A stretch of DNA of 25,653 nt from a virus, in IMG/VR virus record IMGVR_UViG_3300025168_000593, positions 1 to 25,653 of that record, one strand, 5' to 3'. This document shows, piece by piece, positions 1,300-9,667 of the stretch. How positions within the stretch are numbered: the first letter of the stretch is position 1; every line of letters starts with the position of its first letter. A program made the translations under genes and the position numbers. A model generated the notes under the pieces. That model worked only from the letters and a program-made list of their open reading frames with translations, made no database searches and was not told the origin of the DNA.

Positions 1300-2508
1300 C
1301 TAATTATTCATTAAAGCGGCAATTTTATCTGCTGACTCTTGTTCCTTTTCTAAATTTCTCCAATTACCTTTTACATACAAATTAGATATTTCTTTTGTTG
1401 CATGACCATGATCTCTCATCATTGCTTCTTTATTTTCTTCCAGGTATTCTTTTAAAGTTATAACAAACACCCTAAAACTATGTGGTGTTATTGTTCCCAC
1501 TATACCAATCTCCCTATTATATTTATTTAAAACTCGGTTCACAAAATTATTACGATGTATACGAGTATTTTTTTCTGATGAAAAAATTAGTTGTTCTGGA
1601 TCAATAATATTTTTTTGTTTAATATATTCACACAACAATGCTGTCATACTTGATGATAAAGTTACTGCTCTATCCCCAGTCATAGTTTTTGGTCTATGTT
1701 TTAATTTATTACTAGAGGTATTAACATTTTTATTAATATCTAAATATCCAATACCATTTTCCATTTTAAAATCTTGTAATAGTAATGGAATAATCTCTCC
1801 AAACCTTCCCCCCAATTCTCTCATTAAACGAACTAAAACAAATCCTTGGTAATTATTTTTTTCCAAAATATTTGTTAATTGTTTTAATTTTTCCAATGAC
1901 TCTTTATACCCACCTTGTACAATAACTGGATCTGATTTATTTTCTTTGTGTTTTTTTTGTATTCTTTTAAAGTCGCTACGATCCACTTGATCACAATAAT
2001 TAAATATTATTCCTCGTTCTTCTTCTGCTGCATACTTATATAAACGACCTAATAGTTTAAAACATTCCCTATTATATCTCATAGAAAAATGTTTATTCAT
2101 AAATTTATTTATTCTTGATGTTATTCTTACATTAAAATCTTTTAACTTCATGTCTTGAATAGACACATCATCAAGCTTTACAGTCCATAATTTTTTTGCT
2201 TCATACTCATAGTTATTTATTGTTTCATCTTGTGGACCATATTGAACACTCTCCATATAATTCTTCCAATCATCATATAATTTTTTTAATGTATCTTGTT
2301 TTCCATAAGTGCCATTATTAATTGCTTTTTGTATACGATCTTTTTCTTTTGCCAATTCCTCTATATCTGATGGAAATCCAAATTTTTTTGTAGCAATTCT
2401 TTTTGTCTTTATTTGTTTTCTTTTTCCGTCATCACCAATTTTATATTCATTAATTTCAAAAAAATATCTATCTTTCCATGGAGAGATTTTTGTTATTTCA
2501 TAATTCAT
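1300..2508 (-). CDS. int: Tyrosine-family site-specific integrase
   Basis: The enzyme would recombine phage attP with a host attB through a covalent 3'-phosphotyrosine intermediate. In 402 residues the catalytic set is visible: Arg235 (ELGGRFGEI), Lys274 (RPKTMTGDRAV), His343 and Arg346 (TPHSFRVF), His369 (HGHATKE) and Tyr378 (SNLYVKG). Residues 1-60 resemble an arm-binding N-terminal domain (basic, KRKQIKTKRIATKKFG). Residues 70-180 form a SAM-like core-binding domain. The gene is alone on its strand here, and a 15-bp operator-like dyad lies only 11 bp in front of its ATG. That suggests control by the phage repressor. There is no clear ribosome binding site, so low or leaderless translation is possible. 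It ends convergently with the rightward lysis genes. Confidence 0.93.
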   Translation of the reverse strand: MNYEITKISPWKDRYFFEINEYKIGDDGKRKQIKTKRIATKKFGFPSDIEELAKEKDRIQKAINNGTYGKQDTLKKLYDDWKNYMESVQYGPQDETINNYEYEAKKLWTVKLDDVSIQDMKLKDFNVRITSRINKFMNKHFSMRYNRECFKLLGRLYKYAAEEERGIIFNYCDQVDRSDFKRIQKKHKENKSDPVIVQGGYKESLEKLKQLTNILEKNNYQGFVLVRLMRELGGRFGEIIPLLLQDFKMENGIGYLDINKNVNTSSNKLKHRPKTMTGDRAVTLSSSMTALLCEYIKQKNIIDPEQLIFSSEKNTRIHRNNFVNRVLNKYNREIGIVGTITPHSFRVFVITLKEYLEENKEAMMRDHGHATKEISNLYVKGNWRNLEKEQESADKIAALMNN

Positions 2509-7326: not shown

Positions 7327-7350
7327 AGACTTTGCAAAAAAAACTAATTA
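7327..7350. repeat. 24-bp direct repeat, copy 1 (downstream of repressor)
   Basis: The sequence AGACTTTGC, an A-rich 8-mer and CTAATTA recurs at 7672-7695 with one difference in 24 positions. This copy abuts the repressor stop codon and the other lies in the repressor-Cro spacer, so the two flank the repressor gene. Confidence 0.8.
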
Positions 7351-7617
7351 TTATTTTTGTAAAATATCTAAAAAATGTTGTTCGTAAGTTGTTTTTTCTA
7401 CAGTTTTACACTGTGGGTATAGTAAATCGTGTTCATTTGTATGTAATAAAGTAATTTTTGACAGTTTATGAGCCAATTTTTTTGTAAAATCGACCTTACC
7501 ATTTAAAACTTTATTAAAATGAATGACATTTACCTCAATAATTGCAGCTATTTGTTTTTGTTGTAACCCACTATTTTTGATGATTTTCCTTAATATTATA
7601 ATATTATTAGGTATCAT
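7351..7617 (-). CDS. Small XRE-type HTH protein, likely phage repressor
   Basis: The 88 residues hold an HTH_XRE domain at about 5-60: IIILRKIIKNSGLQQKQIAA, IIEVNVIHFNKVLNGKVDFT and KKLAHKLSKI, with the typical second and third helices and the N-G turn. There is no S24 peptidase or oligomerisation domain as in lambda CI, and the rest is only a short tail (YEQHFLDILQK). It is divergent from a Cro-like gene across a spacer of about 97 bp, the classical lysogeny switch. A perfect 15-bp dyad lies 20 bp before its start, so autoregulation is likely. Since it cannot self-cleave, induction must use another route. Confidence 0.75.
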   Translation of the reverse strand: MIPNNIIILRKIIKNSGLQQKQIAAIIEVNVIHFNKVLNGKVDFTKKLAHKLSKITLLHTNEHDLLYPQCKTVEKTTYEQHFLDILQK

Positions 7618-7669: not shown

Positions 7670-7699
7670 TTAGACTTTGCAAATAAAACTAATTAATAT
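7670..7699 (+). promoter_or_regulatory. Rightward early promoter for the Cro-like gene (24-bp repeat copy 2)
   Basis: TTAGAC (7670-7675) and TAATAT (7694-7699) are 18 bp apart, in front of the gene starting at 7715. The predicted transcript would have only a few leader bases, and no ribosome binding site is seen, so leaderless translation is possible. The segment 7672-7695 is the second copy of the 24-bp direct repeat found at 7327-7350. Confidence 0.45.
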
Positions 7700-7714
7700 A
7701 GAGATATTTGCTAT

Positions 7715-7921
7715 ATGACTTTACAAGAATGGAGAACCCTAAAAAAAATTAAAACTTTAGGGGAATTAGCGAAAACATTAAAGGTTGCAAACTCTAAAAA
7801 CCCATCAAGATTGGTCCATAGATGGTTAAATGGGACTTCTTTTCCCAGGAAACACCATTTGGATATAATTTTTAAGGCAACCAATGGCAAAGTTACAGCA
7901 AACGATTTCTTTACCAACTAA
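7715..7921 (+). CDS. Cro-like small HTH protein
   Basis: The protein has 68 residues. The helix-turn-helix is seen as LGELAKTLKVANSKNPSRLV followed by HRWLNGTSFPRKHHLDIIFK, with a final ATNGKVTANDFF segment typical of Cro/CII-like or YdaS-like small regulators. It is the first rightward gene after the divergent switch region and leads into the replication genes, as Cro does in lambda. It overlaps the next gene by 38 bp. It would counteract the repressor or control early transcription; binding sites are not proven. Confidence 0.65.
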   Translation: MTLQEWRTLKKIKTLGELAKTLKVANSKNPSRLVHRWLNGTSFPRKHHLDIIFKATNGKVTANDFFTN

Positions 7922-8228
7922 AATTAAAGTTGGATCAGTGGACATATCTGTCCAGTGTTTAGACGGATTAATTGATATTTCTGAAGATGAAGGCAGCTAT
8001 GATGGTTCAAAACAAACTATTATTTTAGATAAAAATTTAATAGAAAAAAATAATTCGTATTCTTTATTGTTGGTTTTACATGAATTAGATCATGTTATTT
8101 TTGATCATCATTTATTAAAGAATGCCGAGGAGGAAATAGTTGTTAATGCTTTCTCCCATGCCACTGTTCAAATATTGCGAGATAACCCCCAATTAAACAA
8201 ATGGATGCAACAATGTCTGATGCCATAG
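7884..8228 (+). CDS. HExxH zincin-like phage protein (ImmA/IrrE-related?)
   Basis: The protein has 114 residues with a zinc-protease motif HELDH at 66-70 (LLLVLHELDHVIFDH) and a downstream acidic cluster NAEEEIVVNAF that would give the third zinc ligand. The end, HATVQILRDNPQLNKWM, matches a family of small phage proteins with HExLH...EExVvxxLaxxLxQVLRDNPxLxxW. An AAGG six bases before the ATG at 7884 supports this start despite the 38-bp overlap with the Cro-like gene. Related ImmA proteins cleave phage repressors. Because the repressor here lacks a self-cleavage domain, the protein could serve that purpose; this is a hypothesis. Confidence 0.7.
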   Translation: MAKLQQTISLPTKIKVGSVDISVQCLDGLIDISEDEGSYDGSKQTIILDKNLIEKNNSYSLLLVLHELDHVIFDHHLLKNAEEEIVVNAFSHATVQILRDNPQLNKWMQQCLMP

Positions 8229-8638
8229 GAAGAATACACGCCAGTGAACAGAAAATTGTCAATAATATTAAATTTCAGGGAAAAAAAGAGGAGTTAGAGG
8301 AGTTGAGTCAAAATGAAATAAAATTAGTAAAATTATTTATTAATAAACCAGCTATCATGCATATGTTAGTTGAATACCCTAATGCTGCTATAAAAGATGG
8401 TTTATTTGATTGTGCCTACAAAGTTATAAAATATTACGGAATTTCTATAGATCAATTAGTTTGTAGAAAACGAGATCGTCATTTTGTCCATGCTAGACGA
8501 GATTTTTGTCATTTAGCTATTCAACACACTAGTTGTACTAAATCAAAAATAGGTCGTTTCTTAAAGCGAGATCACACCATGATTATTCATTATCTAAAAA
8601 AACCACCTATTAATTTGGATAAGATTGATGCTTCTTAA
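8201..8638 (+). CDS. DnaA domain-IV-like DNA-binding protein
   Basis: Residues 80-132 of 145 match the C-terminal DnaA-box-binding domain: GISIDQLVCRKRDRHFVHAR, RDFCHLAIQHTSCTKSKIGR and FLKRDHTMIIHYLKK. The signature RDHTxxxHxxK is present, with IIH in place of the usual VLH. The AAA+ ATPase domain of DnaA is absent; the first 75 residues are helical and unrelated. ATG 8213 is an alternative start. Such proteins are found beside phage replication initiators. This one is followed directly by a winged-helix replication protein with iteron-like repeats, so a role in origin recognition is likely. It overlaps both neighbours. Confidence 0.8.
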   Translation: MDATMSDAIGRIHASEQKIVNNIKFQGKKEELEELSQNEIKLVKLFINKPAIMHMLVEYPNAAIKDGLFDCAYKVIKYYGISIDQLVCRKRDRHFVHARRDFCHLAIQHTSCTKSKIGRFLKRDHTMIIHYLKKPPINLDKIDAS

Positions 8639-9245
8639 ACGATGGCACTTATTAAAAGAGGTTATGTCAGATAAACATCTAAATGCTGCATCATTAAGAG
8701 TTATGTTTTTTTTATTAAATAGAGAGAACAGTAAGACAAAAGCTCTATTTCCTAGCCACTTACGACTATCCGAGGACACAAAGTTATCGGAAAGACAAGT
8801 GAGAAGGGGGATTAAGAGCTTAATTAATGAAAATTACATTGTTATTTTACGAAAAGGATCGCCAGGTCGTGCAACATCCTATCAAATTAACTATCAACAG
8901 AGGACAAGAATGGTCGTAACAGAGGACAACATTGGTCATAAAAGGGGGTCAAAAGCGTCCGACCAATCTACCAAACAATCTACTAATGAATCTAGTAAAG
9001 TAAATAAGGAGGATGTGGATAGAATAATCTCTAAATCCACGAAGATGTTTAACCCTAATTATAAAGCAGTCGTTAATGGACAAAGACCACGATACAATTC
9101 TGATGAAAAAATCTATGAAAGAATATTACGGAAAACAGAAGATCCCAACCTGGCAGAACAATGGTTAAAACTACAAAAGAGTCCAGATTGGAACGATAAG
9201 GTGCGAGCTGAAGAAATTGCAAAACACCTACAATGCCTGAAATAA
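8628..9245 (+). CDS. Winged-helix phage replication protein (lambda O-like position)
   Basis: I use ATG 8628 (a TTG at 8625 gives one more residue; ATG 8664 is possible). In about 205 residues the N-terminal part is a winged HTH of the HTH_36 kind: LNAASLRVMFFLLNRENSKT, FPSHLRLSEDTKLSERQVRR and GIKSLINENYIVILRK. A low-complexity linker (SDQSTKQSTNESSKVNKED) follows, then a basic C-terminal region with KIYERILRKTEDPNLAEQWL. This layout, an origin-binding wHTH followed by a linker and a helicase-loader-interacting tail, is that of lambda O-type initiators. As in lambda, repeats that could be the origin lie inside the gene (8896-8999). Confidence 0.68.
   Translation: MLLKRWHLLKEVMSDKHLNAASLRVMFFLLNRENSKTKALFPSHLRLSEDTKLSERQVRRGIKSLINENYIVILRKGSPGRATSYQINYQQRTRMVVTEDNIGHKRGSKASDQSTKQSTNESSKVNKEDVDRIISKSTKMFNPNYKAVVNGQRPRYNSDEKIYERILRKTEDPNLAEQWLKLQKSPDWNDKVRAEEIAKHLQCLK
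8896..8999. repeat. Iteron-like repeats inside the replication gene, putative origin
   Basis: Two adjacent 22-bp units at 8896-8917 and 8918-8939 share AACAGAGGACAA and TGGTC and agree at 19 of 22 positions. The unit is not a multiple of three, so the two copies are read in different codon phases and encode different residues. That points to selection on DNA rather than protein. Downstream, three 12-bp units (CAATCTACCAAA, CAATCTACTAAT, GAATCTAGTAAA) run from 8964 to 8999 and could be a protein-level repeat. A GACCAATC at 8961-8968 partly mirrors TTGGTC of the second unit. Confidence 0.6.
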
Positions 9246-9667
9246 CAACCCAAGATATCATTAATCTTTTTGAAGATGCAGCTAGAACAGACAAACGACT
9301 TCCTAGTGCCATTAAAAAGCAAAAAACAACTGCTTGGATGGACCATACACAAGAGAAAATGTACAAACATAGTTATTATGCTGCTAATTTTAAAATAGTA
9401 CCTAGTTCAAGAGATATCAGTCGTTGGTGGATTGCTAGTGAAATATTACGATCGGTCGTTGAGGATATAGAAATAAAAAAATTAATTTGGGTTAGAGCTA
9501 ATAAATTTCCCTGGACTTTCATCGGTCGTAGATTTGGTTATAGTAGACGAAAGGCAAAACAAGTATTTGAAGAAGAAATAATTTATATTAGACTGTGGTT
9601 GCAACTCCATGAGAAACATAAAAAAGTTAATGACATGATTGACAAAATTGTGCTAAAAAAAAGATAG
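9233..9667 (+). CDS. DUF6362-type phage protein
   Basis: The 144 residues match a family common in phages of alphaproteobacteria: LPSAIKKQKTTAWMDH at the front, RDISRWWIASEILRSVVED in the middle, then LIWVRANKFPWTFIGRRFGY and SRRKAKQVFEEEIIYIRLWL. The last part (WxxIGRRFGYSRRKAKQ) is a sigma-factor-like HTH. Members usually lie near packaging or replication genes and are thought to bind DNA; the exact role is unknown to me. It overlaps the replication gene by 13 bp and ends convergently with an HTH gene. A long A/T inverted repeat that may be a terminator begins in its last codons. Confidence 0.72.
   Translation: MPEITTQDIINLFEDAARTDKRLPSAIKKQKTTAWMDHTQEKMYKHSYYAANFKIVPSSRDISRWWIASEILRSVVEDIEIKKLIWVRANKFPWTFIGRRFGYSRRKAKQVFEEEIIYIRLWLQLHEKHKKVNDMIDKIVLKKR

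Follow-up and report, generated by a model that had tools for sequence, protein, structure and literature searches.

How genome replication starts in the temperate relatives of Pelagibacter phages seems undescribed in the literature that we searched. One such relative, an uncultured marine virus, carries a set of short repeats in the middle of a gene for an O-like replication initiator, raising the question of whether these repeats are the origin of replication, operators of the replication operon, or simply the trace of a repetitive protein segment. Comparison of related sequences leads us to regard the array as very probably a lambda-type replication origin, of a variant form that includes a distal site and a module of ordered 12-mers. 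A lambda-type origin would be new in this phage group, and the finding gives a precise, testable origin together with its initiator.

The virus and its replication genes

The stretch of DNA analysed, called the window here, is the whole IMG/VR virus record (25,653 bp). The relationship of the virus to Pelagibacter phages is reflected in its head–tail connector, which is 58–60% identical to those of such phages (e.g. HTVC203P and HTVC010P). An integrase gene lies within the window (1300–2508, minus strand) and is adjoined by a tRNA-Asn (2856–2930), the only structured RNA found with Rfam, which is likely an attachment site or a carried tRNA. The genes around the repeats follow one another in this order:

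7715–7921, cro-like HTH gene
7884–8228, plus strand, phrog_1233 gene, metallopeptidase-like at most weakly, which holds the distal palindrome
8201–8638, plus strand, gene for an ATPase-less, box-binding DnaA domain IV protein (PF08299, 46.5 bits)
8625–9245, plus strand, gene for the O-like winged-helix initiator (HTH_36), starting at ATG 8628 or TTG 8625
9233–9667, plus strand, DUF6362 gene in the position of lambda P (PF19889, 49.2 bits), found in 27 of 27 records

The initiator matches Pfam HTH_36 above the cut-off (30.5 bits) and, among the PHROGs, phrog_678 (E 1.8e-11), phrog_345 and phrog_391, annotated as ‘replication initiation O-like’; its match to Phage_rep_O is weak and below the cut-off (14.4 vs 28.7 bits). 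Its AF2 model consists of a winged helix, a disordered linker (96–126) and a helical C-terminal part. Relatives of the initiator were taken from 26 other viral contigs, making 27 records with the window, and codon-aligned. Matches in cultured phages are weak only, and scans of genome collections for prophage copies found no relative.

Three palindromes within the initiator gene

The original prediction had pointed to two adjacent 22-bp units, followed by three 12-bp units, as the likely origin. The tandem is real: its copies (8896–8917 and 8918–8939) are identical at 19 of 22 positions and, since 22 mod 3 is 1, are read in different codon phases. It is the sole tandem in the window with a period of 15–40 and at least 86% identity, and it is not explained by chance, none of 60 Markov-2 simulations having given such a tandem with a period of at least 20. 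The inventory of repeats needs amending: the three 12-bp units stand, but the true repeated element is a 14-bp degenerate palindrome (consensus GGACA-n4-TGTCC) in three copies, the last of which (8947–8960) had been missed. About twenty relatives have the three palindromes, spaced by 22 and 22–23 bp, and then three 12-mers headed AATC[C/T]. The elements in the window are:

8891–8899, plus strand, weak DnaA-box-like 9-mer CTATCAACA (two mismatches), just left of iteron 1
8902–8915, iteron 1, degenerate palindrome GGACAAGAATGGTC, in register in relatives
8924–8937, iteron 2, degenerate palindrome GGACAACATTGGTC, 22 bp from iteron 1
8947–8960, iteron 3, degenerate palindrome GGTCAAAAGCGTCC, 23 bp from iteron 2
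8965–9000, three 12-mers AATC[C/T]AnnAAnn, candidate unwinding module
9014–9022, minus strand, DnaA-box-like 9-mer CTATCCACA (one mismatch), just right of the 12-mers

No array of the set strays further from the consensus than that of the window (8/10 in each unit). The cleanest palindromes are those of L005 (GGACAGTTTTGTCC, GGACAGTATTGTCA and GGACAGATATGTCC), the last of which is also the reading of iteron 3 in L006, and the spacing in L013 is 22 and 22 rather than the 22 and 23 of the window. In relatives with the same initiator, the bases of the repeats are themselves conserved, and the rest of the window yielded no second iteron array; both results support the placement of the origin in the initiator gene. 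The records are fragments, and replication could start in a part of the full genome outside them. The origin would extend over 8902–9000, and probably as far as 9022.

Conservation as DNA rather than as protein

Iterons and 12-mers fall in the DNA that encodes the predicted disordered linker of the initiator. Were the repeats only a low-complexity protein linker and the DNA pattern a by-product, the predicted disorder would be accounted for, as would the in-phase QSTN/INKS repeats that the 12-mers encode in most relatives. The different codon phases of the 22-bp units speak against this explanation, and so do three further observations, on the strength of which we consider it refuted.

The first is that synonymous sites are frozen. 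Over 8894–8993, the excess of identical codons among codon pairs with identical amino acids is 0.37, compared with 0.09 elsewhere in the gene, and none of 100,000 column permutations reached this value. A scan of four genes placed the segment among the strongest peaks; the other strong ones were at the distal site, at an overlap of two genes and at the DUF6362 3' end. The second is that the palindromes exceed what codon choice would supply: with the protein fixed, 0 of 1,000 synonymous resamplings yielded phased palindromes as good as those observed, in 13 of 13 lineages, although the palindrome consensus was learned from the same family, so that the test is not fully independent.

The third observation, persistence of the DNA through reading-frame shifts, is the strongest single argument for selection at the DNA level. 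In L013, a change of one base in the interval from palindrome 2 to palindrome 3 puts the following codons in another frame; the DNA of palindrome 3 and of the three 12-mers is retained, and the protein reads GGQKCPTNPLTNPLSNP, not the DQSINKSIN type. The phase change in L018 and L025 lies inside the 12-mer array, and L044 and L045 are also on the other phase. Taken together, these alignments indicate that the DNA of the array is itself under selection, conserved as DNA and not as protein, and the frame-shifted copies present an unusually clean natural case of intragenic DNA selected independently of the protein.

In four lineages (L018, L025, L044 and L045) the array departs from the consensus, and in the two of them that were tested the array score was reached by 46 of 1,000 (L018) and 100 of 1,000 (L045) resamplings. 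With the consensus lost, the origin model needs a changed specificity in these four lineages. In L018 (941–1531) and L025 (5001–5594), the 22-bp units now read CATGACAAAAA.GGTAAA and I replaces R60 in the recognition helix, making this pair a candidate for a joint specificity switch of iteron and initiator.

The 12-mer module and strand stability

The AATCT heads of the 12-mers are at 8965, 8977 and 8989 in the window, and the 12-bp spacing of the heads is kept in nearly all of 19 relatives. The units are in codon phase in the window; because some or all of them are in another phase in five relatives (L013, L018, L025, L044 and L045), they too are DNA elements. At the boundary between iterons and 12-mers, the instability percentile jumps from the 5–13th to the 84th (40-bp windows), the 12-mer side being at the 75–80th percentile in 80-bp windows. 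The 12-mer region is only modestly less stable than the average of this AT-rich genome. This local step, in a profile of the kind that the original prediction had proposed as a check, would fit an origin. GC skew was dropped as evidence, being uninformative on the origin because it follows gene orientation.

The distal palindrome and the operator alternative

One further copy of the element lies apart from the array:

7940–7953, distal site, perfect palindrome GGACATATCTGTCC, inside the upstream phrog_1233 gene, about 960 bp upstream of the array

All lineages with a consensus array except L013 have a distal palindrome, 565–690 bp upstream of the initiator start. The encoded residues are not constant (V, T or L; S, F, I or N), yet the palindrome is preserved through the use of rare codons, ACG and GTC among them, and the probability of its arising by synonymous choice is 0.0005–0.005 per lineage. 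The site is missing too in the lineages without a consensus array (L018, L025, L044 and L045), a co-loss that fits a single shared binding protein. The distal palindrome probably gives the initiator one more site, with a role in looping, copy control or operon regulation; this reading is weaker than that of the array itself.

A perfect copy so far from the array, together with the fact that operators typically comprise palindromic sites in two places, raises an alternative in which the initiator or another regulator controls transcription of the replication operon through these palindromes, with the copy at 7940 as a second operator and the origin elsewhere. Three phased copies with a 12-mer module in the middle of a gene are, however, the anatomy of iterons; there is no promoter-like match at the array, and a regional promoter scan gave fewer sites than shuffles; no alternative array was found in the window; and the divergent region beside the repressor gene has different repeats. 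We therefore judge the operator explanation very unlikely and retain the origin as the reading of the array.

The repeats beside the repressor-like gene (7351–7617, minus strand) are near-identical stretches, AGACTTTGCAAA.AAAACTAATTA, on either side of it (7335–7365 and 7673–7700), and are likely the operators of the lysogeny switch. A CI-type operator reading of the iterons was rejected because these repeats have another sequence.

The DnaA domain IV protein and the flanking 9-mers

The gene preceding that of the initiator had been described as encoding a DnaA box-binding domain without an ATPase, and both the PF08299 match and the predicted fold bear this out: the fold matches the DnaA DNA-binding domain (3pvp_B, rmsd 0.8 over 67 columns), and by sequence the protein matches 1j1v (E 1.9e-7). 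The gene is directly upstream of that of the initiator in 25 of 27 records. The accompanying suggestion, that two phage proteins recognise the origin, is less settled, with boxes in a subset of relatives and one lineage, L013, in which the array is present and a DnaA_C match is absent. In L013 (1908–2117), the slot of the DnaA domain IV gene is taken by a 69-aa ORF that begins like the product of that gene (MDGSM) and has no DnaA domain.

Box-like 9-mers (at most one mismatch, 18-bp windows) occur on the right flank of the array in 7 of 14 lineages and on the left flank in 6 of 14, against a background with a mean of 0.41 and a next-best window of 4, so that the two maxima within 3 kb fall exactly on the two flanks. 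The left 9-mer, which has one or no mismatch in several relatives, overlaps the codons of a conserved I-N-Y. Five lineages have neither flank box, and in three of these the protein has a KHN instead of an HT signature; boxes go with the HT signature (8 of 9 vs 1 of 5, Fisher p 0.02, uncorrected for ancestry).

How the domain might be used is informed by gene transfer agents, in which DnaA domain IV serves as a transcription activator: GafY, a homologue of this domain, is a promoter-binding protein that contacts RpoD, GafZ is an HTH protein resembling sigma factors, and GafA of Rhodobacter fuses such domains (PMC11150451, PMC9632790, PMC6363796). The DnaA domain IV protein, perhaps with DUF6362, could form an activator pair of this kind, leaving the O-like initiator alone to recognise the origin, an arrangement compatible with the array as origin. 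This precedent, the L013 array and the five lineages lacking both boxes favour such a pair, whereas the position of the 9-mer maxima and their association with the HT signature oppose it, and we rate its chances slightly short of even. Comparison of DUF6362 with solved structures gave nothing meaningful, and neither solved structures nor Pfam linked it to sigma factors. The DnaA domain IV protein may act at the origin. A fuller scheme, in which the phage initiator binds the iterons, the DnaA domain IV protein binds the flanking boxes and replaces or blocks host DnaA, and the distal iteron 1 kb away loops to control the origin, seems to us rather unlikely as a whole. Whether phages borrow the DNA-binding domain of DnaA for replication or for transcription is a question that can be put to the gene of this protein and to the distal site.

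Comparison with known systems and a proposed mechanism

The lambda origin consists of 19-bp inverted-repeat iterons in the middle of O, bound by O dimers and located beside an AT-rich tract (PMC7466680, PMC5043065). The system described here resembles those of lambda and lambdoid (Stx) phages in the cro-O-P-like position of the initiator and in the mid-gene, dyad-symmetric iterons that encode a disordered linker and are followed by DNA that is, here modestly, less stable (PMC7466680, PMC5043065). It differs in its iterons (three palindromes of 14 bp, with a different sequence, in place of four iterons of 19 bp) and in the tract beside them (three ordered 12-mers rather than purine-asymmetric AT DNA). 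It also has a conserved distal palindrome 960 bp upstream, a DnaA domain IV gene upstream, DUF6362 in place of P, and only a weak Phage_rep_O match.

From the anatomy shared with lambda we infer that dimers of the initiator, encoded by the same gene, would bind the three dyad-symmetric iterons, about two helical turns apart, and would wrap or strain the DNA; the adjacent 12-mer module would then open, and helicase would be loaded at the opened 12-mers.

Initiator repeats beside short AT-rich 12–13-mers, with DnaA-box-like sites nearby, are likewise found in Escherichia coli oriC and in iteron plasmids of the RK2/P1 type (PMC5043065). Here, by contrast, the initiator repeats are palindromic and within the initiator gene, whereas plasmid iterons bind monomers, and the DnaA boxes are weak and not universal. 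With GafY/GafZ and GafA the system shares a stand-alone DnaA domain IV protein encoded close to a small HTH protein in a phage-like element of alphaproteobacteria; in the present case, however, the replication initiator sits between the two genes (DUF6362 being one gene away), and an origin-like array adjoins.

Further conserved sites

One clade (L010 at 7970, L011 at 7700, L012, L015–L017 and L020–L022) keeps a further palindrome, TGACAAGATTGTCC, about 2.7–3.2 kb downstream of the initiator start. At the 3' end of the DUF6362 gene (9614–9667 in the window), synonymous sites are frozen in all relatives; the segment, AATGACATGATTGACAAAAT, has two TGACA words 10 bp apart and is possibly a promoter −35 element (TTGACA) or another protein site.
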